This document shows, piece by piece, positions 1 through 22,886 of a stretch of DNA of 49,628 nt. The notes beneath the pieces were generated by a model, which saw nothing but the letters and a program-made list of their open reading frames with translations, did no database searches and had not been told where the DNA came from. Source of the DNA: a virus. The stretch lies in IMG/VR virus record IMGVR_UViG_3300037487_003269, positions 1-49,628 of that record, one strand, 5' to 3'. Each line of letters starts with the position of its first letter. The first letter of the stretch is position 1. Both the position numbers and the translations under genes were made by a program.

Positions 1-573
1 AAGAACTACCGGAACGTCGTGGGGATCGACATCTTTAACGAACCCTACGGCCCAACGTGGGAAGTCTGGGCCGGTATGTCTGGGAGAGCCGGAAAAGCCA
101 TTTTGCGGGCTAATCCCTATGTCCTGGTCTTTGTCGAGGGGGTGGCAGGTGCAAGCCCTGCCGGTGGCTTTGGGCCATTCTGGGGGGAGAATCTGTTTGA
201 GGCCGGAGATAAGCCGGTTGATATCCCCAGCTCTAGGCTAGTCTACTCGCCGCACGTGTACGGTCCCAGTGTGGCGGGTCAGTCGTATTTCAACGAGCCA
301 CGGTTTCCTAACAACATGCCTAACATTTGGGATATGCACTTTGGTTACCTGCGGGAAGATCACCCGCTAGCAATTGGCGAATTTGGTGGGCGCTATCAGG
401 GACATGATCAAGTCTGGCAAGATGCGTTTGTCGCCTACATCAAACGCGAGGGAATTAAAAATTGGTTTTACTGGTCCCTTAATCCCAACTCGGGCGATAC
501 CGGGGGGATCTTACTGGACGACTGGAAGACGGTCGACCAGCGCAAGATGGACCTACTAAAGCGACTAATGTAA
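1..573 (+). CDS. glycoside hydrolase family 5 (endoglucanase-like), 3' fragment
   Basis: The reading frame is open from base 1, so the 5' part of the gene lies outside the window; 190 codons remain. The fragment has two GH5 signatures. The first is DIFNEP (Glu at fragment residue 14), which in the family is the acid/base catalyst. The second is IGEFGG (Glu at about residue 127), which in the family is the nucleophile. Between them SPHVYG (about 84-88) matches the conserved His-x-Tyr strand of the TIM barrel, and NWFYWSLNPNSGDTGGIL near the end matches the Trp-containing last strand. In this family such enzymes cleave beta-1,4-glucans or related polysaccharides. No carbohydrate-binding module follows. 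Whether it belongs to the phage (a polysaccharide depolymerase) or to flanking host DNA cannot be decided here. Confidence 0.9.
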   Translation, partial: KNYRNVVGIDIFNEPYGPTWEVWAGMSGRAGKAILRANPYVLVFVEGVAGASPAGGFGPFWGENLFEAGDKPVDIPSSRLVYSPHVYGPSVAGQSYFNEPRFPNNMPNIWDMHFGYLREDHPLAIGEFGGRYQGHDQVWQDAFVAYIKREGIKNWFYWSLNPNSGDTGGILLDDWKTVDQRKMDLLKRLM

Positions 574-1557: not shown

Positions 1558-2619
1558 ATGCTTTCTCAGGGATACTGTAAATTCTCTCGCGGTTGGAAAC
1601 ACGAGCCACGCTCACCGTTCTACGGCGCGAAGTATCGTAACTATTACGAGGTGTGGCGGGAGCTATGCGAACAAGCTGGCTTCTCCAACGACTTTGGAAT
1701 GACTCTCGGTTTGGTCAGCATCACCGTATCTGAACTTGCCGACGCCGTCGGGGTTCCTCATCGCTCTTGTCTCAACGCCATCAAGTGGATAGCGGGGCAG
1801 GGTCTGATTGAAATTGTGAGAAGCCAGCCCAGTCTCTCGATTGCCATTAGTCGGTACGAAAAGCTCAATTGCCTAAAGCTGTATTTTGGCTGGGAATCGA
1901 CACCTGACGAAATGGCTGAAACATCTGGCGCATTGGTTTCGCCCTATGAAAATAGGGTTAATATCACTCAAACCGAAACTGAAAAAACATCTGGCGCATG
2001 GAAATCCATACCTAACGATCTTGAATCGTTGGCAAATATGGAATGTGAAAAAACCATCTGGCGTATGCCAAAAACATCTGGCGTCTATCTGGCGCATGAC
2101 GAGGGGGGGTTAATGGCGCGTAATCACAGGAAAAAAGAAGGGGTCGAAAAAACATCTGGCGTGCATCTGGCGCACAAAACGGACGTTCTTAAGAATAGAG
2201 AAGAGAATACAACTACTCTAAAGAGTAGTAGTAGGCGGCTCGCGCAAAGGCGCAAGCCTACCCGGACACCGACAAGTGAGGAAATTCAATTAGCCACATT
2301 CTGGCACGAAGTAATCACAAGCCGGAGTAAGTCGAATCTCATCACCGTTGATGAGCAGGTCGACGGTCTTATTTCTTTTGTCGACAAAACCAAGGTCAGT
2401 ACCGACCTCATCCGGGAGGTACTTACCTGGGCAGCAACCAACAAGTATTGGGTAAAGCAAGTAAGGTGCTTGGCCGAGCTTTACTTACCCTCTAGGCAGT
2501 CGAAGTCGGTTAGGCGTTTTCAGGCGATGGTCGATGACTGGGAGTACCAGCAAGAGGCCAGCGCCAAGAAGAAGTCCGAGCAACCAAAGGTATCGAAGTG
2601 GGCTGGGGATATTATTTAA
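1558..2619 (+). CDS. lambda-O-like replication initiator with in-gene origin
   Basis: A 353-residue protein. Residues about 53-88 (ITVSELADAVGVPHRSCL then GLIEIV) form a winged helix-turn-helix like those of phage O/DnaD-type initiators. Residues 122-205 are low in complexity because they are encoded by DNA repeats read in all three frames. Residues about 228-330 are a helical domain, and the tail is Lys/Gln-rich. The next gene is a DnaB-family helicase, the expected partner. The start at 1558 has GGAG eight bases upstream, and an in-frame stop at 1516 rules out a longer form with ATG or GTG. By analogy with lambda O, it should bind the iterons inside its own gene and recruit the helicase; this is inferred from architecture, not from a strong family match. 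Confidence 0.7.
   Translation: MLSQGYCKFSRGWKHEPRSPFYGAKYRNYYEVWRELCEQAGFSNDFGMTLGLVSITVSELADAVGVPHRSCLNAIKWIAGQGLIEIVRSQPSLSIAISRYEKLNCLKLYFGWESTPDEMAETSGALVSPYENRVNITQTETEKTSGAWKSIPNDLESLANMECEKTIWRMPKTSGVYLAHDEGGLMARNHRKKEGVEKTSGVHLAHKTDVLKNREENTTTLKSSSRRLAQRRKPTRTPTSEEIQLATFWHEVITSRSKSNLITVDEQVDGLISFVDKTKVSTDLIREVLTWAATNKYWVKQVRCLAELYLPSRQSKSVRRFQAMVDDWEYQQEASAKKKSEQPKVSKWAGDII
1921..2229. other. probable phage replication origin: iterons, AT-rich segment, inverted repeat
   Basis: Seven direct copies of ATCTGGCG (usually within ACATCTGGCGCATGG) start at 1923, 1989, 2056, 2076, 2087, 2154 and 2165. The offsets are 66, 67, 20, 11, 67 and 11. They are read in all three codon phases (Thr-Ser-Gly, Ile-Trp-Arg and Leu-Ala), so the DNA rather than the protein is conserved. 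To the right lie a purine/AT-rich stretch (about 2176-2211) and a perfect 8-bp inverted repeat, ACTACTCT-AA-AGAGTAGT (2212-2229). The order of iterons, AT-rich tract and palindrome inside an initiator gene matches the known lambda origin inside gene O. Confidence 0.75.
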
Positions 2620-2641: not shown

Positions 2642-3928
2642 ATGCTAGACGCGGAACAACTTTTAATCAGTGAGACGTTGAAAAACCCAGAGCTCTTGGA
2701 GACGTTCATCGGCGAGGGGATAAAAGCCTCGTCCTTCTTTCGGGACGACTGCCGGGAGATATGGAAGGCCATTATCACGAGTCCGCAGGAGAACGGCAAG
2801 TTTGACTCGATGTTGACCCTCCAGCGATTGCCCCAGGAACTATTTTCTTTGGGAGCCGCCTACCTTGTAGAAGACTCGACGACTCAAAATCTGGTCGCCT
2901 TGGCCCGCGAAGTTGTCACGGGTGATAAGGCTCGCAGAGCGGCGCTGCTTGCATCGGCTGCGGTCAGAGAACTAACAGCTAGAAAAGTGGGCGACTCTAT
3001 TGGCCCAATCATTGCCAAGCTGGAGGCAGATTTAAACAGCCTAAAGATTTCCGATGCTGACGTGGCCGAGCGCCGGGGTACTGAGGTGATCTCGGAGATT
3101 ATGGAAGACTTTGACGCGCTCATAAAGGGCGAAGCTCCACCGCGCATCACGACGGGATTTCCAAAGCTCGACAAGATCCTTGGGGGCGGCTTTAACCGGG
3201 GAGAGTATTCCATTCTGGCAGCGCGTACCGGGGTCGGGAAGACTACGGCAGCGCTTTGGATGGCATCGTCGGCTGCTATTGCTGGCCATAAGACGCTCTA
3301 TGTCACGGTCGAGATGAAAGCCAAGAAGCTACTAGCGAAGGCCATTGCCTCGCACGGTGGGCTAAGTCTGTCGAAGTACCATACGGCTGACTGGACCCAG
3401 GAGGACCAAGACAGATTCCACAACGGGGCTAATAAGATCCTTCTCGGGGATAATTTGTATTTCCTCGACAACTCTAGGCGCTCAATTGAGCGGGTTATGT
3501 CTCGCGCCAAGTTCATGAAGCGAACTGGCGGGCTAGATTTCCTGGTGATTGACTATGTGCAGCAGTTTAAAACATCGAACCGGCACGCTAAGCGCAACGA
3601 GATGATGCTAGAGATTTCCGCCATGATGCAGGAGCTGGCTAAGGATCTGGATATCGGTGTCCTATGCCTGGCCCAGCTCAACCGCGATGCTGCCAAGTCT
3701 GAATTTCCCGTTGCCTACCAGATCAAGGACTCGGGCGACTTTGAGCAAGACGCCGACGCGGTCATCTTGGTGCATAAGTTCCTGGGCGATGACCACCGAC
3801 CTACGGGCAATTACGCCATGATTGTCGAGAAGGTGAGAGACGGGCGCAGCAACGTCATGTTTCACCTGGAAGGCCGTCACGACATTGGCCGTCTGATAGA
3901 GATCGAGGGTAATGACATAGATGTATGA
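2642..3928 (+). CDS. DnaB-family replicative helicase
   Basis: A 428-residue protein with the layout of replicative helicases. An N-terminal helical domain (about 1-110) is followed by a linker, then TTGFPKLDKILGGGF (170-184) leading into the RecA-like ATPase. Walker A is AARTGVGKT (193-201). Walker B is LVIDYVQQ (301-308), with the catalytic-type Asp at 304. Downstream, LAQLNRDAA and DSGDFEQDADAVI are the DnaB C-terminal signatures. It would unwind DNA at the fork as a hexamer. I chose ATG 2642, with GGGAG nine bases upstream, over the upstream start at 2534, which would overlap the initiator gene by 86 bases. No separate loader gene was recognised. Confidence 0.92.
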   Translation: MLDAEQLLISETLKNPELLETFIGEGIKASSFFRDDCREIWKAIITSPQENGKFDSMLTLQRLPQELFSLGAAYLVEDSTTQNLVALAREVVTGDKARRAALLASAAVRELTARKVGDSIGPIIAKLEADLNSLKISDADVAERRGTEVISEIMEDFDALIKGEAPPRITTGFPKLDKILGGGFNRGEYSILAARTGVGKTTAALWMASSAAIAGHKTLYVTVEMKAKKLLAKAIASHGGLSLSKYHTADWTQEDQDRFHNGANKILLGDNLYFLDNSRRSIERVMSRAKFMKRTGGLDFLVIDYVQQFKTSNRHAKRNEMMLEISAMMQELAKDLDIGVLCLAQLNRDAAKSEFPVAYQIKDSGDFEQDADAVILVHKFLGDDHRPTGNYAMIVEKVRDGRSNVMFHLEGRHDIGRLIEIEGNDIDV

Positions 3929-4084: not shown

Positions 4085-4474
4085 ATGCAGCTTAAAGAGC
4101 GCCAGATTTGGAAGACAAGAGGTGGTTACCGAGTATCTGTTTATTTTGTAGGCAGTGAGCAGGCAGCTATTGGCTCGGCCTCGGGCTGTCAGTCACTCAC
4201 GCCCGGGAGTGGCCATGTCTTGTACGTCGGTCTCGACGGCAAAGCTTTGGGCTACGACCGTGAAGAGTTCGACCTCGTTGAATATCTTGGTTACGAGATT
4301 GATCTATCTAATCGTGAGGGCGTTCAATGTTTTGGCTTATGGATTAACGACTGTCTCAAAAGCCTATCGGCAGTCTCGGACGATAAAGCGAAGCCCGCGA
4401 TTGATAACATGCGCTCGCGTATCAAAGAGATATGCGAGGGATATCCTAACGGCCTGCCGCTAACTCACGAGTGA
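4085..4474 (+). CDS. hypothetical early protein, 129 aa
   Basis: No family recognised. It has an N-terminal beta-rich half (RQIWKTRGGYRVSVYFVGSE), followed by an acidic and then a helical half with Arg/Lys. The start ATG has GAGGGG a few bases upstream. The end of the gene and its link to the next (coding LTHE, stop, GAGAGCAATATG) closely resemble the end of the following gene (LTHK, stop, GAGGACAACATG), so this junction is a repeated module. It lies 156 bases after the helicase gene and begins a run of small early genes. Confidence 0.7.
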   Translation: MQLKERQIWKTRGGYRVSVYFVGSEQAAIGSASGCQSLTPGSGHVLYVGLDGKALGYDREEFDLVEYLGYEIDLSNREGVQCFGLWINDCLKSLSAVSDDKAKPAIDNMRSRIKEICEGYPNGLPLTHE

Positions 4475-4481
4475 GAGCAAT

Positions 4482-4964
4482 ATGATGACGGATAAAGAAC
4501 TGCGTCGATTAGACATGTATATGGGCGGGGAGATCGCCAAAAGGTGGCCGCTGCGTTACCGCAACCGCCGTAGTGGTATGTGGATTTTCACCTTGCCAAG
4601 CGGAAACCTTAGTAATCTTCGTCTTTACGAATATCACCATCCGAAGATGCACCAAGTCAGTGTTGTCCGCGTCAGTGATATATTTTCAATTCCAGCGTCA
4701 GTTGAAGACCCTTACATAAACACCAAGGCCAAGCCAAAATTAAAGCTTAGCTTTCTTCCCGAAGAGGCCGAGCTAGTCATTCCGTGGGCGCTTGACAATT
4801 ACGTTGCTAAGAGTGGTGACTATCCGGCGTTTATGGCTGAGCATTGGAAAGGAAACTTCGAGGAAGACAACGACGGGTATTTCTGGAGTCAATCGGCTTG
4901 GGATAAGGCGAGGCTAACGAGCCTAGCGTTGACGGCATCCCAGATGTCACTAACCCACAAGTGA
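4482..4964 (+). CDS. hypothetical early protein, 160 aa
   Basis: No family recognised. It is rich in Tyr, Trp and Arg near the N-terminus (MYMGGEIAKRWPLRYRNRRS) with a mixed alpha/beta pattern. Two ATG codons in tandem open the gene after GTGAGAG. It shares its 3' junction sequence with the preceding gene and is followed eight bases later by the next one, so the early genes here are probably one operon. Confidence 0.7.
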   Translation: MMTDKELRRLDMYMGGEIAKRWPLRYRNRRSGMWIFTLPSGNLSNLRLYEYHHPKMHQVSVVRVSDIFSIPASVEDPYINTKAKPKLKLSFLPEEAELVIPWALDNYVAKSGDYPAFMAEHWKGNFEEDNDGYFWSQSAWDKARLTSLALTASQMSLTHK

Positions 4965-7558: not shown

Positions 7559-7840
7559 ATGCTGGCTGGAATCTTCATTGTTGTGGCGGGCTACCGCCGG
7601 CCGCAAAGAATCATCGTGCGTAAAGTTGGCGACAGCTACACGTTCACCTGGACCGACAGCCGGGGCATTAACCGGGTCTTTGAAAGCGACCTGATTGGCT
7701 TTGGTGTCTCGGTTTTTAAAGAACGCGGCGGCGGACAGCGGCGCTTTACGATCAAGGGCCGTTGGGACGAAGTTTTTTACCGCGATCATAGTGGCCAGAT
7801 TCACGAAGTAAAAATACATGAAGACCAAGAAATCGACTGA
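7559..7840 (+). CDS. hypothetical protein, 93 aa
   Basis: A basic, beta-rich small protein (RRPQRIIVRKVGDSYTFTW near residues 12-30) with no recognised family. The ATG at 7559 has GGAG six bases upstream, and was chosen over a start inside the ssb gene. It overlaps the next gene by 23 bases. Confidence 0.6.
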   Translation: MLAGIFIVVAGYRRPQRIIVRKVGDSYTFTWTDSRGINRVFESDLIGFGVSVFKERGGGQRRFTIKGRWDEVFYRDHSGQIHEVKIHEDQEID

Positions 7841-8291
7841 TAAGCTTCAGGCACGGATTGAAAAGGCCCAGCTAGCCTTTGAGCTGGACGTTGTTGATAA
7901 ACAAATTCTTAAGCTTAAGTCTCTCGATCCTCGTCTTGATATCCGCACCATCGCTAAGAAGGTTGGTATGCACTATGCAACGATCAGCAAGCGCATGGAC
8001 AAGCCGGCGTTTAAGCGGGCCTGGGACGCCGTCAACGAGTCCACCATGGAGATCATGGAACGCAATGCCAAGAAAGCCGCCTACGCCCTCGGCAAACTGA
8101 TTGACGAAGACGACAAGAAGATAAAGCTCGAAGCCATCAAGCTGTCGCTAAGCCCCATCCTAAACAGCCATAGCCATCAGGTCTCCGTATCACAGGAGGT
8201 TGTTTACAAGACGACCGTCCAAGCCGACAGCTCTTTACTCCAAACAGTAATAGACGGCGAAGTGATCGAGAAAAATGACCGGGGTGACTAG
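7818..8291 (+). CDS. probable terminase small subunit
   Basis: A 157-residue protein with a Lys-rich N-terminus. It has a helix-turn-helix (DIRTIAKKVGMHYATISKRM, about residues 41-60), then long helices (MERNAKKAAYALGKLIDED and KIKLEAIKLSLSPILN), and a variable C-terminal tail. This order (HTH, then repeated A-K-L helices) fits phBC6A51-like small terminases, which recognise the packaging site and oligomerise. The large subunit begins about 1.9 kb downstream, with several other genes in between, which is unusual and lowers confidence. A plain regulatory HTH protein is the alternative. Confidence 0.6.
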   Translation: MKTKKSTDKLQARIEKAQLAFELDVVDKQILKLKSLDPRLDIRTIAKKVGMHYATISKRMDKPAFKRAWDAVNESTMEIMERNAKKAAYALGKLIDEDDKKIKLEAIKLSLSPILNSHSHQVSVSQEVVYKTTVQADSSLLQTVIDGEVIEKNDRGD

Positions 8292-10228: not shown

Positions 10229-11584
10229 ATGGCCGTTCACATCATAGACCCACCAAAGCCCCACGGAAAAAAGCAGGCGCTTATTATGCAGGCGTTTTTG
10301 CATCCTGGGGTCGAGGAAATCTATGTGGCGTGCGGCACCAAGTGGGGCAAGACCATCAGCGCCTCGACGGCCATTGTCGCGGGCATGGTGGCTAAACCAC
10401 GTTCTGTGTTCCGCTGGGTCGCTCCGATCTACACTCAGTCAAAGATCGGTCTGGCCTACTGCAAGACGATTCTGCCGCCACCACCCCATGTCTCGCTGAA
10501 TCTTTCCGAGATGGAAATTAAGCTCCCATCAACTAACGCCATGATCCAGTTTTACCACGCCCAAAACCCTGTATCCCTAGAAGGCTACGGTATTAACGGT
10601 TACGTTTTCGATGAATCCGCAAAGATCAAAGAAGACGCCTACGCCTCGGCCAAGACCACTGTGACCGTGACCAAGGGTACGATGATGTTTGTGTCGACCC
10701 CTTACGGAAAGAATTGGTTTTACAGAAAGTGCATGGACGCAGCCGACGAGATGGCGCGGGCTAAGTACGAAGGCAGGATCCCAAAGCAGATTTTTATCAC
10801 TGCCCCAACTGCCGATAATCCGCACGTACCAAGGGAGTCCATCGAAGCCGCCCGCAAAGCCTTGGCTCCCAGGCTTTTTCGGCAGTTTTTTGAGGCTTCT
10901 TTTGAGGACGAAGGCTCAGTATTCACTAGCTACAGGCAATGTGTTTACACGCCCGAGCTTGACCTGTACGGGGACGATCAGGCATGGTTTGATGATAGTT
11001 CAAAAAAATCCACCGTGGTGATCGGGGCCGACTGGGCCAAGACGCTAGACTACTGCGTCTTCATTGCAGTCGATCTTGAAACGAGGAAGATTGTCGGCTT
11101 TCAACGCTTTCACAAGCAGCCGTATACCGAAGCCATCCGCCGGCTGGTTCTTTTCTCGCGCAAGTTTGGCGGCTGTGACGCCGTTTATCACGACAAGACC
11201 GGCGTCGGCATGGCCATAGATGACCAGCTAGCCTACACCGATCTAAACTACCGGGGGATTACCTTTACTAATGCTTCGAAAGCCGAGATGGTAAATCGAC
11301 TCATCACAGCCTTTGAGCAAAGGTCTATTCTCATACCAGCATGGCCCACGCTTTTGTCTGAGTTAGAAGGCTTTGAGGTTCATTCGAGTGAGATTGGAAC
11401 ACTCAGGTATGCCGCCTCGGGCAACGGTCACGACGATGCCGTGTGCGCCCTCCTTCTTGCTCACTCCGCGCTAATGGATTACGCTGAGAGGCAAAATGAT
11501 CTCCAATTTTTAGAAGACATAAAGCCTCAAGCTCTCTCGGAGCTGGAGACACTATACCAAAGGCTCTCGGATGACGACGACTGA
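10229..11584 (+). CDS. terminase large subunit
   Basis: A 451-residue packaging motor. In the ATPase domain, Walker A is CGTKWGKT (35-42), Walker B is GYVFDES (124-130) with the catalytic Glu following Asp, and the coupling motif is STPYGKN (156-162). The RNase-H-like nuclease has Asp 268 (VIGADWAKT), Asp 322 (YHDKTGVG) and HDD (401-403). The size is normal. It cuts concatemeric DNA and drives it through the portal. Its end overlaps the portal gene by 14 bases. The ribosome-binding site is weak, suggesting coupling to the upstream gene. Confidence 0.95.
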   Translation: MAVHIIDPPKPHGKKQALIMQAFLHPGVEEIYVACGTKWGKTISASTAIVAGMVAKPRSVFRWVAPIYTQSKIGLAYCKTILPPPPHVSLNLSEMEIKLPSTNAMIQFYHAQNPVSLEGYGINGYVFDESAKIKEDAYASAKTTVTVTKGTMMFVSTPYGKNWFYRKCMDAADEMARAKYEGRIPKQIFITAPTADNPHVPRESIEAARKALAPRLFRQFFEASFEDEGSVFTSYRQCVYTPELDLYGDDQAWFDDSSKKSTVVIGADWAKTLDYCVFIAVDLETRKIVGFQRFHKQPYTEAIRRLVLFSRKFGGCDAVYHDKTGVGMAIDDQLAYTDLNYRGITFTNASKAEMVNRLITAFEQRSILIPAWPTLLSELEGFEVHSSEIGTLRYAASGNGHDDAVCALLLAHSALMDYAERQNDLQFLEDIKPQALSELETLYQRLSDDDD

Positions 11585-21490: not shown

Positions 21491-22129
21491 ATGATTAAAC
21501 AATTATTGATAGTTGGTTTACTTGTTAGCTGCGGCAAAGAGGAAAAAAAGAAAGATCCTCCGCCGCCAGTGATTGTGCAACCGCAGCCGCCGTCTGACGG
21601 TGGTAGTGGCTGGCCTATACCTGGATTTCCCAGTATTCCAGGTATGCCGCAGCTCCCGAGCTTCCCCGGTATTCCGGGATTTCCCAACCTGCCCAACTTG
21701 CCGGGACCTGGTCTGCCAGGATCCCCAAGTGAGCCAATGCCGCCCGATGCTGGAAGCCCACCACCTCCCGCCTCGGACCAAGTTACGGCGCTTATAGTCG
21801 AGATCAACCGAGTCAGAAGTGAGCGCGGTCTTCCCACGGTAGTTGCAACTCCAGGTCTCACCTGTGCGGCCCAGCGCCATGCAAATGACGTTGGCGTGCG
21901 GGGATCGTGTTCGCACAGTGGGTCAGACGGGTCTAGCCCGTGGGACAGGGCATCGGGCTGCGGCGCATCGGCAGACGGCGAGATAATTGCCTGTGGCCAA
22001 GGTACACCCGCCGAGGCCGTACAAGCCTGGACCTATAGCCCTGGTCACGCTGCCATCATGTATGACAGGAACCAGAGCGAAGTTGGCGCGGCTATGGTCA
22101 ACAATTACTGGGTTGTGATATGGAAATAG
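21491..22129 (+). CDS. lipoprotein with Pro/Gly-rich stalk and CAP domain
   Basis: A 212-residue protein. The signal peptide ends in a lipobox (LLVSC, Cys 14). Then comes a stalk (about 20-95) of Pro and Gly with collagen-like GxPG spacing, then a CAP/SCP domain (about 97-212): VEINRVRSERGLP, SCSHSGSDGSSPWDRA, WTYSPGHAAIMYD and NNYWVVIWK. CAP proteins are secreted and often bind lipid or cell wall. A phage-encoded CAP lipoprotein could alter the host surface or block superinfection; both are inference. AAGGAG precedes the ATG. A terminator separates it from a convergent CAP gene. Confidence 0.85.
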   Translation: MIKQLLIVGLLVSCGKEEKKKDPPPPVIVQPQPPSDGGSGWPIPGFPSIPGMPQLPSFPGIPGFPNLPNLPGPGLPGSPSEPMPPDAGSPPPPASDQVTALIVEINRVRSERGLPTVVATPGLTCAAQRHANDVGVRGSCSHSGSDGSSPWDRASGCGASADGEIIACGQGTPAEAVQAWTYSPGHAAIMYDRNQSEVGAAMVNNYWVVIWK

Positions 22130-22145
22130 CATCTCATTAGCTTCA

Positions 22146-22179
22146 GGGAATCCCCTTCGCCAGGGGGGTTCCCATTTTT
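22146..22179 (+). terminator. terminator between convergent CAP genes
   Basis: GGGAATCCCC and GGGGGGTTCCC flank a TTCGCCA loop, with ATTTTTA after it on the plus strand. The stem could also stop the convergent leftward transcript. Confidence 0.75.
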
Positions 22180-22765
22180 ACTTCCTCGGCATTCCCGTAC
22201 ACTTCATGAATCCTGGATCTAGCGAATAAACATTGGTGTCATACTTGCCGGCTACATTACCCGCTGGGCTATAGCGGCATACATAATAGTTTTCATCCCC
22301 GCACTTAGCCGACCCACAGCCAAGCTCAACCGTCTCTCTCCATACGATCTGACTAAACTCAGCCGTCGCAGGTGTCCCGTTTTTATCTCCGTATGGGTAA
22401 TAAATAAACGGCAGATACCAGTTATCTTGCGCCTTGATCTGGCCCAGTACTTTACCGTGAGCAATGTTTTCGCCGAGGCTGCCAAAAATGGCAGGGTCTT
22501 TCTTCAGCGTACACTTAGCCGCGTGAGCCCTAGCACCATCGGCTAGTCTCTCGGACCACTTGATATCACCCACACGGTGCCAACAACGCTTGAGATTATG
22601 AAAAACCATGTACTGCTCTCGCTCGACAATGCCTCCAGGGGCGCCAGGATTAGCTGGTGATGTCGGCCCTGATGGAGCTGTTGGTACTGTCTGCCCCTCC
22701 TTGTCGTCGTCGCTTTTGTGTGAACACGAAACGGCAAGCAAGGCAGCAAAGACTAAACGGCGCAT
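22178..22765 (-). CDS. leftward CAP-domain lipoprotein
   Basis: A 195-residue protein. The signal peptide MRRLVFAALLAVSC is a lipobox with Cys 14. A short Pro/Thr/Ser linker follows. The CAP domain has HNLKRCWHRVGDIKWSERLADGARAHAAKC (in pieces), LGENIAHG, then the CAP1-like FSQIVWRETVELGCG and CAP2-like YYVCRYSPAGN. The His usually before the FSQIVW segment is Glu here. The start at 22765 has AGAGGT six bases upstream, and the longer frame to 22807 lacks such a site. It is antisense to the late operon and convergent with the other CAP gene, so it is likely a separately expressed insert. Confidence 0.87.
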   Translation of the reverse strand: MRRLVFAALLAVSCSHKSDDDKEGQTVPTAPSGPTSPANPGAPGGIVEREQYMVFHNLKRCWHRVGDIKWSERLADGARAHAAKCTLKKDPAIFGSLGENIAHGKVLGQIKAQDNWYLPFIYYPYGDKNGTPATAEFSQIVWRETVELGCGSAKCGDENYYVCRYSPAGNVAGKYDTNVYSLDPGFMKCTGMPRK

Positions 22766-22886
22766 AGTAGACCTCTTGAATGGTTGTTTATAAACTATAT
22801 TACGCAATCATCGAATAGCGACAAGGTCTTGCATATAACGCCGCGCAAATCTAAGCTGTTAGCTAAACATCCCCGGAGAAATTACG
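22766..22886. promoter_or_regulatory. divergent spacer with candidate leftward promoter
   Basis: On the minus strand TTGTCG and TAATAT are separated by 16 bases, a plausible sigma-70 promoter for the leftward CAP lipoprotein. The same spacer leads rightward into the head-tail connector genes. Confidence 0.35.

Follow-up and report, generated by a model that had tools for sequence, protein, structure and literature searches.

The replication origin of bacteriophage lambda is located in the middle of gene O, where an AT-rich tract adjoins the iterons, and the O protein is comprised of an N-terminal DNA-binding domain, a flexible linker and a C-terminal domain that binds P (PMC6022878, PMC7466680). 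The iteron plasmids of the RK2, P1 and F type resemble the locus described here in having short, direct, non-palindromic iterons beside an A+T-rich opening region, but differ from it in that their iterons are in helical phase, whereas the 66–67 bp intervals found here are not helical multiples (PMC5043065). In the gene for gp39 of Lactobacillus phage BH1, which is annotated as a DnaD-like helicase loader, the sequence GAACAGCT occurs three times with an 11-bp spacing in codon phases 0, 2 and 1. With lambda and BH1 as precedents, iterons occupying all codon phases of an initiator gene are not new. The initial annotation of the present locus was thus correct in placing iterons in all three reading frames, but this characteristic is not special to it, because lambda's own copies also fall in phases 0, 2 and 1. 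What is distinct here is an initiator without significant similarity to O, short iterons that lack dyad symmetry, and 11-bp pairs of iterons arranged on a 67-bp ladder.

The DNA that was analysed (hereafter the window) is the complete 49,628-bp IMG/VR virus record IMGVR_UViG_3300037487_003269, from an uncultured phage. It contains the large terminase, major head protein and tape measure genes of a tailed phage and also encodes an SSB, an exonuclease and an Erf-like annealing protein. Two CAP/SCP-like genes of the secreted lipoprotein type, assigned to this family by eye, are found on opposite strands at 21491–22129 and 22178–22807. No RNA was found in an Rfam search. The features that are of main interest are listed in Table 1.

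The iteron array and the sequences that adjoin it

Seven exact copies of ATCTGGCG are present on the + strand between positions 1923 and 2172, all of them inside the gene for the 353 aa protein. Their start-to-start distances are 66, 67, 20, 11, 67 and 11 bp and their codon phases are 2, 2, 0, 2, 1, 2 and 1, which confirms by exact matching and phase counting that an array of seven repeats covering the three phases lies in the initiator gene. A single stray copy occurs elsewhere, on the − strand at 4100, and the total of 8 copies in the entire window on both strands compares with 1.66 expected and was reached in 0 of 100 shuffles. When the codons of the gene were shuffled synonymously with the protein kept (n = 2000), no 8-mer was present in more than 4 copies, in comparison to the 7 observed. 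Hence, the array cannot be attributed to the protein sequence or to codon usage, and the earlier view that selection at the protein level cannot account for the repeats is upheld. In a first-order Markov control, some 8-mer occurred at least 7 times in 5 of 2000 runs, and these 8-mers we take to be homopolymer-like.

The layout of the array is one of 11-bp pairs on a 67-bp ladder. The initial annotation had regarded this spacing as regular and possibly reflective of nucleoprotein geometry; the values themselves are confirmed, but helical phasing is not maintained throughout, as 11 and 20 bp correspond to about 1 and 1.9 turns, whereas 66–67 bp amounts to about 6.3–6.4 turns and is not a multiple. 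Dyad symmetry is not a characteristic of these iterons: their best dyad was equalled or beaten by column-permuted controls in 363 of 500 cases for the window and in 57 of 500 for a related record, L003 (described below), while the iterons of lambda, which served as the positive control of this test, gave 0 of 500.

Both of the elements that had been described as following the array, an AT-rich tract and a perfect 8-bp inverted repeat, are real. The tract, a candidate DNA unwinding element, is approximately the 28th least stable among the 49,579 windows of the entire record. In L003, the counterpart at 4473–4522 is likewise of lower stability than any other 50 bp in the initiator-helicase region and is situated just 3′ of the last iteron copy, and an inverted repeat with 8-bp arms (GCTACTGT/ACAGTAGC) is found at the corresponding place (4506–4524). 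On the − strand, the inverted repeat of the window is followed by a T-rich stretch and has a terminator-like score; it might therefore end an antisense transcript.

Table 1. Coordinates of the features in the window, with the related positions in L003.
Feature	Position	Strand	Remarks
Initiator-like gene, 353 aa	1558..2619	+	ORF; start MLSxGYCKFSRGW kept in L003; AlphaFold2 models
Iteron 1, ATCTGGCG	1923..1930	+	phase 2; without an aligned direct copy in L003
Iteron 2, ATCTGGCG	1989..1996	+	phase 2; aligns with L003 4287
Iteron 3, ATCTGGCG	2056..2063	+	phase 0; aligns with L003 4354
Iteron 4, ATCTGGCG	2076..2083	+	phase 2; opens an 11-bp pair; aligns with L003 4374
Iteron 5, ATCTGGCG	2087..2094	+	phase 1; aligns with L003 4385
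Iteron 6, ATCTGGCG	2154..2161	+	phase 2; opens an 11-bp pair; aligns with L003 4452
Iteron 7, ATCTGGCG	2165..2172	+	phase 1; aligns with L003 4463
Candidate DNA unwinding element, AT-rich	2185..2234		least stable 50 bp in initiator-helicase region
TTCTTAAGAATA, with 10-bp palindrome	2186..2197		letter-identical at L003 4484–4495
Inverted repeat, 8-bp arms ACTACTCT/AGAGTAGT	2212..2229		8 perfect bp; 12 nt at 92%
DnaB-type replicative helicase gene	2642..3928	+	directly 3′ of initiator-like gene; Pfam DnaB_C 9.5e-47, phrog_19 3.7e-69
Terminase small subunit candidate	7818..8291		phrog_2538 4.6e-6; upstream of large subunit gene at 10229

The initiator-like protein and its comparison with known systems

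The 353 aa protein is predicted to consist of a winged-helix DNA-binding domain (about residues 1–100), a disordered linker (about 101–213) and a helical C-terminal region (about 214–340). In the AlphaFold2 models, the winged helix covers about residues 24–98 (domain model mean pLDDT 70, pTM 0.68), the pLDDT of the linker is mostly below 35, and the helices from residue 214 onward are of low confidence. The seven iteron copies encode residues 122–205, which fall within this predicted disordered linker (pLDDT about 21–28). No significant match was obtained for this protein in Pfam and PHROG profile searches; the closest replication-initiation PHROG was phrog_4880 (replisome organizer; E 0.058, sub-threshold), and the L003 initiator gave phrog_186 (DnaD-like; E 0.076, also sub-threshold). 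In structural comparisons, the N-terminal domain matched, amid generic winged helices, some phage replication initiators, replisome organizers and a protein labelled "lambda GpO N-terminal". The full-length model gave mostly generic winged helices in Foldseek, with CRP, CodY and the plasmid centromere-binding protein AspA among the matches.

The locus resembles ori-lambda in three respects: the initiator sites (here putative) form a direct array within the initiator's own gene, with copies in more than one codon phase (0, 2, 1 in lambda); the protein has a DNA-binding N-terminus, a linker encoded by the array and a C-terminal interaction region (here predicted); and the iterons are followed, on the C-terminal side, by an AT-rich tract and then an inverted repeat, as they are inside gene O. 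It differs from ori-lambda in that the iterons are 8–9 bp long and without dyad symmetry, in contrast to the 18-bp hyphenated palindromes of lambda; in their spacing (67-20-11-67-11 as compared to 20-24-23); in the presence of a DnaB-type helicase gene next to the initiator where lambda has the loader gene P; and in their number, which is six or seven rather than four. Six iterons are present in Stx phages (PMC7466680). The initial annotation had noted little visible similarity to O, and this assessment holds: the best hhalign probability is 4.6% (E 0.0088), covering 48 columns of the winged-helix segment, with 0.2% for the C-terminal segment, and the phage O family of Pfam does not match the 353 aa protein. 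Judged from its sequence, the array probably works like ori-lambda, with an initiator that these comparisons do not place in the O family.

Apart from its repeats, BH1 gp39, an example of a replisome organizer from a Gram-positive siphophage, is similar to this protein, by eye, in its general domain order, with a low-complexity linker between an N-terminal and a C-terminal domain. However, there is no significant sequence match between them, and the BH1 gene has only three close copies, without the 67-bp ladder. In synonymous shuffles of the BH1 gene, the 7-mer count of its repeat was reached in 3 of 300 and the 8-mer count in 6 of 300, and this gene (L041, 515–1312) is another candidate for an intragenic origin. 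The O-like gene of Escherichia phage vB_EcoS-716R3 (L040, 512–1420) has in-frame 15-bp TCAAAATC repeats in its linker-encoding part. With regard to the iteron plasmids, no match of the initiator to a Rep family of Pfam was observed. Plasmid iterons generally lie outside the rep coding sequence.

A related phage with the same layout and different iteron letters

Relatives of the window were sought in viral and genome sequence sets by means of its initiator, helicase, large terminase and DNA patterns. L003 (IMGVR_UViG_3300031999_000038, record G001) was found through the helicase search, its helicase being 50% identical; its initiator is 35% identical to that of the window and is the sole initiator homologue found in those viral and genome sets. 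No homologue was detected among annotated phages and plasmids. The other 18 contigs from a scan with the pattern YYEVWR[ED] matched in unrelated reading frames and were discarded. In record G006, the terminase is 72% identical to that of the window, but the contig ends inside the helicase, and its initiator is therefore missing. A cluster of ATCTGGC in record G002 (L002, L016) was rejected as a relative, since it is largely non-coding and in both orientations and has no initiator or helicase match. This cluster, at L016 2947–3469 in an unrelated 64-kb virus record (IMGVR_UViG_3300043395_002393), contains 11 ATCTGGC sites in about 520 bp, some of them 11–12 bp apart and mostly in the form TATCTGGCAC/GTGCCAGATA; it is iteron-like, with a core in common with the window. 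A glycoside hydrolase family 5 gene is located upstream of the initiator both in the window (1–573) and in L003 (466–1647), the former assigned by matches to Pfam Cellulase and a hydrolase PHROG and the latter by eye from its translation.

The linker-encoding part of the L003 gene contains six copies of the AACCCGACC type (4287, 4354, 4374, 4385, 4452 and 4463), one of which is ATCCCGACC. Their spacing (67, 20, 11, 67 and 11 bp) and phases (2, 0, 2, 1, 2, 1) are exactly those of copies 2–7 of the window and they lie in an ungapped block; among matches to CCCGACC on both strands of the L003 record, 7 of 11 are in the initiator gene. It had been anticipated that the repeats would be conserved in relatives at synonymous positions. 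Their positions, spacing and phases are conserved, but their letters are not: identity between the two phages is 19/48 (40%) inside the copies as compared to 77/143 (54%) between them. In either phage the copies agree among themselves, and the L003 positions encode peptides other than those of the window. As the copies are alike within each phage and different across phages, the iterons have changed together while their positions were kept. The equal spacing follows automatically from homologous copies in an ungapped block, and the informative part is thus the joint change of letters. The predicted recognition helix is identical at only 3 of 13 residues between the two proteins, versus 33 of 40 for residues 1–40, and this divergence may be matched to the change in the iterons. 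However, residues 41–56, in the neighbouring loop, are likewise identical at only 5 of 16; the helix belongs to a portion of the protein that has diverged, and its divergence is not specific and is suggestive rather than proof. These observations suggest that the constraint on the spacing comes from the nucleoprotein complex and that on the letters from co-evolution with the initiator.

Functional interpretation of the array and its significance

Based upon these results, the array is very probably the iteron part of the phage replication origin, situated inside the gene for its own initiator. The proposal of an intragenic, lambda-like origin is strongly supported by L003, where an array with like alignment positions, spacing and phases is present despite mostly changed letters. 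A GC-skew minimum at the array, which had been suggested as a check, was not observed, as the local minima of the cumulative curve fall at about 26 kb and 41 kb and not in the vicinity of 2 kb; this result is uninformative with regard to an origin, since the GC skew of phages largely follows gene strand.

Among other explanations, the repeats could serve as operators for autoregulation of the operon by the winged-helix protein or some other regulator, or as sites of handcuffing, rather than as a start of replication. The winged-helix domain is of a type found in regulators (CRP, CodY), and plasmid initiators both autoregulate or handcuff and initiate, but the array is located in the coding region about 365 bp past the start codon with no promoter-like site found nearby, and in both phages it is followed by DNA of low stability and an inverted repeat, with the replicative helicase gene next; we consider this explanation improbable. 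A packaging (pac/cos) or partition site is less probable still. Such a role could be proposed because packaging sites can fall within phage genes, small terminases have helix-turn-helix domains, and AspA is among the structural matches; however, the array is part of the replication module and the terminase small subunit candidate is elsewhere. The least credible explanation is that coding sequence for linker peptides, among them KTSG.. and ..LAH, was duplicated and has no function at the DNA level, for although each phage has a pair of similar 27–30 bp blocks (2070–2096/2148–2174 in the window; 4365–4394/4443–4472 in L003), and duplication thus probably contributed to the array, the three codon phases give unrelated peptides (TSG, IWR and LA), synonymous shuffles never reproduced the array, and L003 encodes different peptides there, yet its copies all agree.

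If the array is an origin, the N-terminal winged-helix domain of the 353 aa protein would bind the iterons, the assembled complex would strain and open the AT-rich tract that adjoins the array on its C-terminal side, and the helical C-terminal region may then recruit the DnaB-type helicase, the product of the next gene, to the opened strands. The placement of the array may be due to the fact that the linker-encoding stretch tolerates any amino acids that the binding sites dictate.

Origins with many sites are hard to re-specify because a change in the protein has to be accompanied by a change in all of the sites. In the present case, the single genes of two homologous initiators each contain an array at like positions, and every copy differs in its letters between the two. 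We tentatively propose, somewhat short of an even chance, that they represent a new initiator family in which a rigid 67-20-11-67-11 scaffold is kept, the letters of all iterons are changed jointly with the recognition helix, and the disordered linker absorbs the resulting amino acid changes, so that the pair, these being the two genomes upon which the concerted change on a fixed scaffold is based, may provide a natural record of a multi-site origin changing its specificity. Such a change would be testable by swapping the winged-helix domains and the arrays between the window and L003 genes. The results of this work would also add, to the initiators with lambda-like intragenic origins, a family that is outside the recognition of Pfam and PHROGs.
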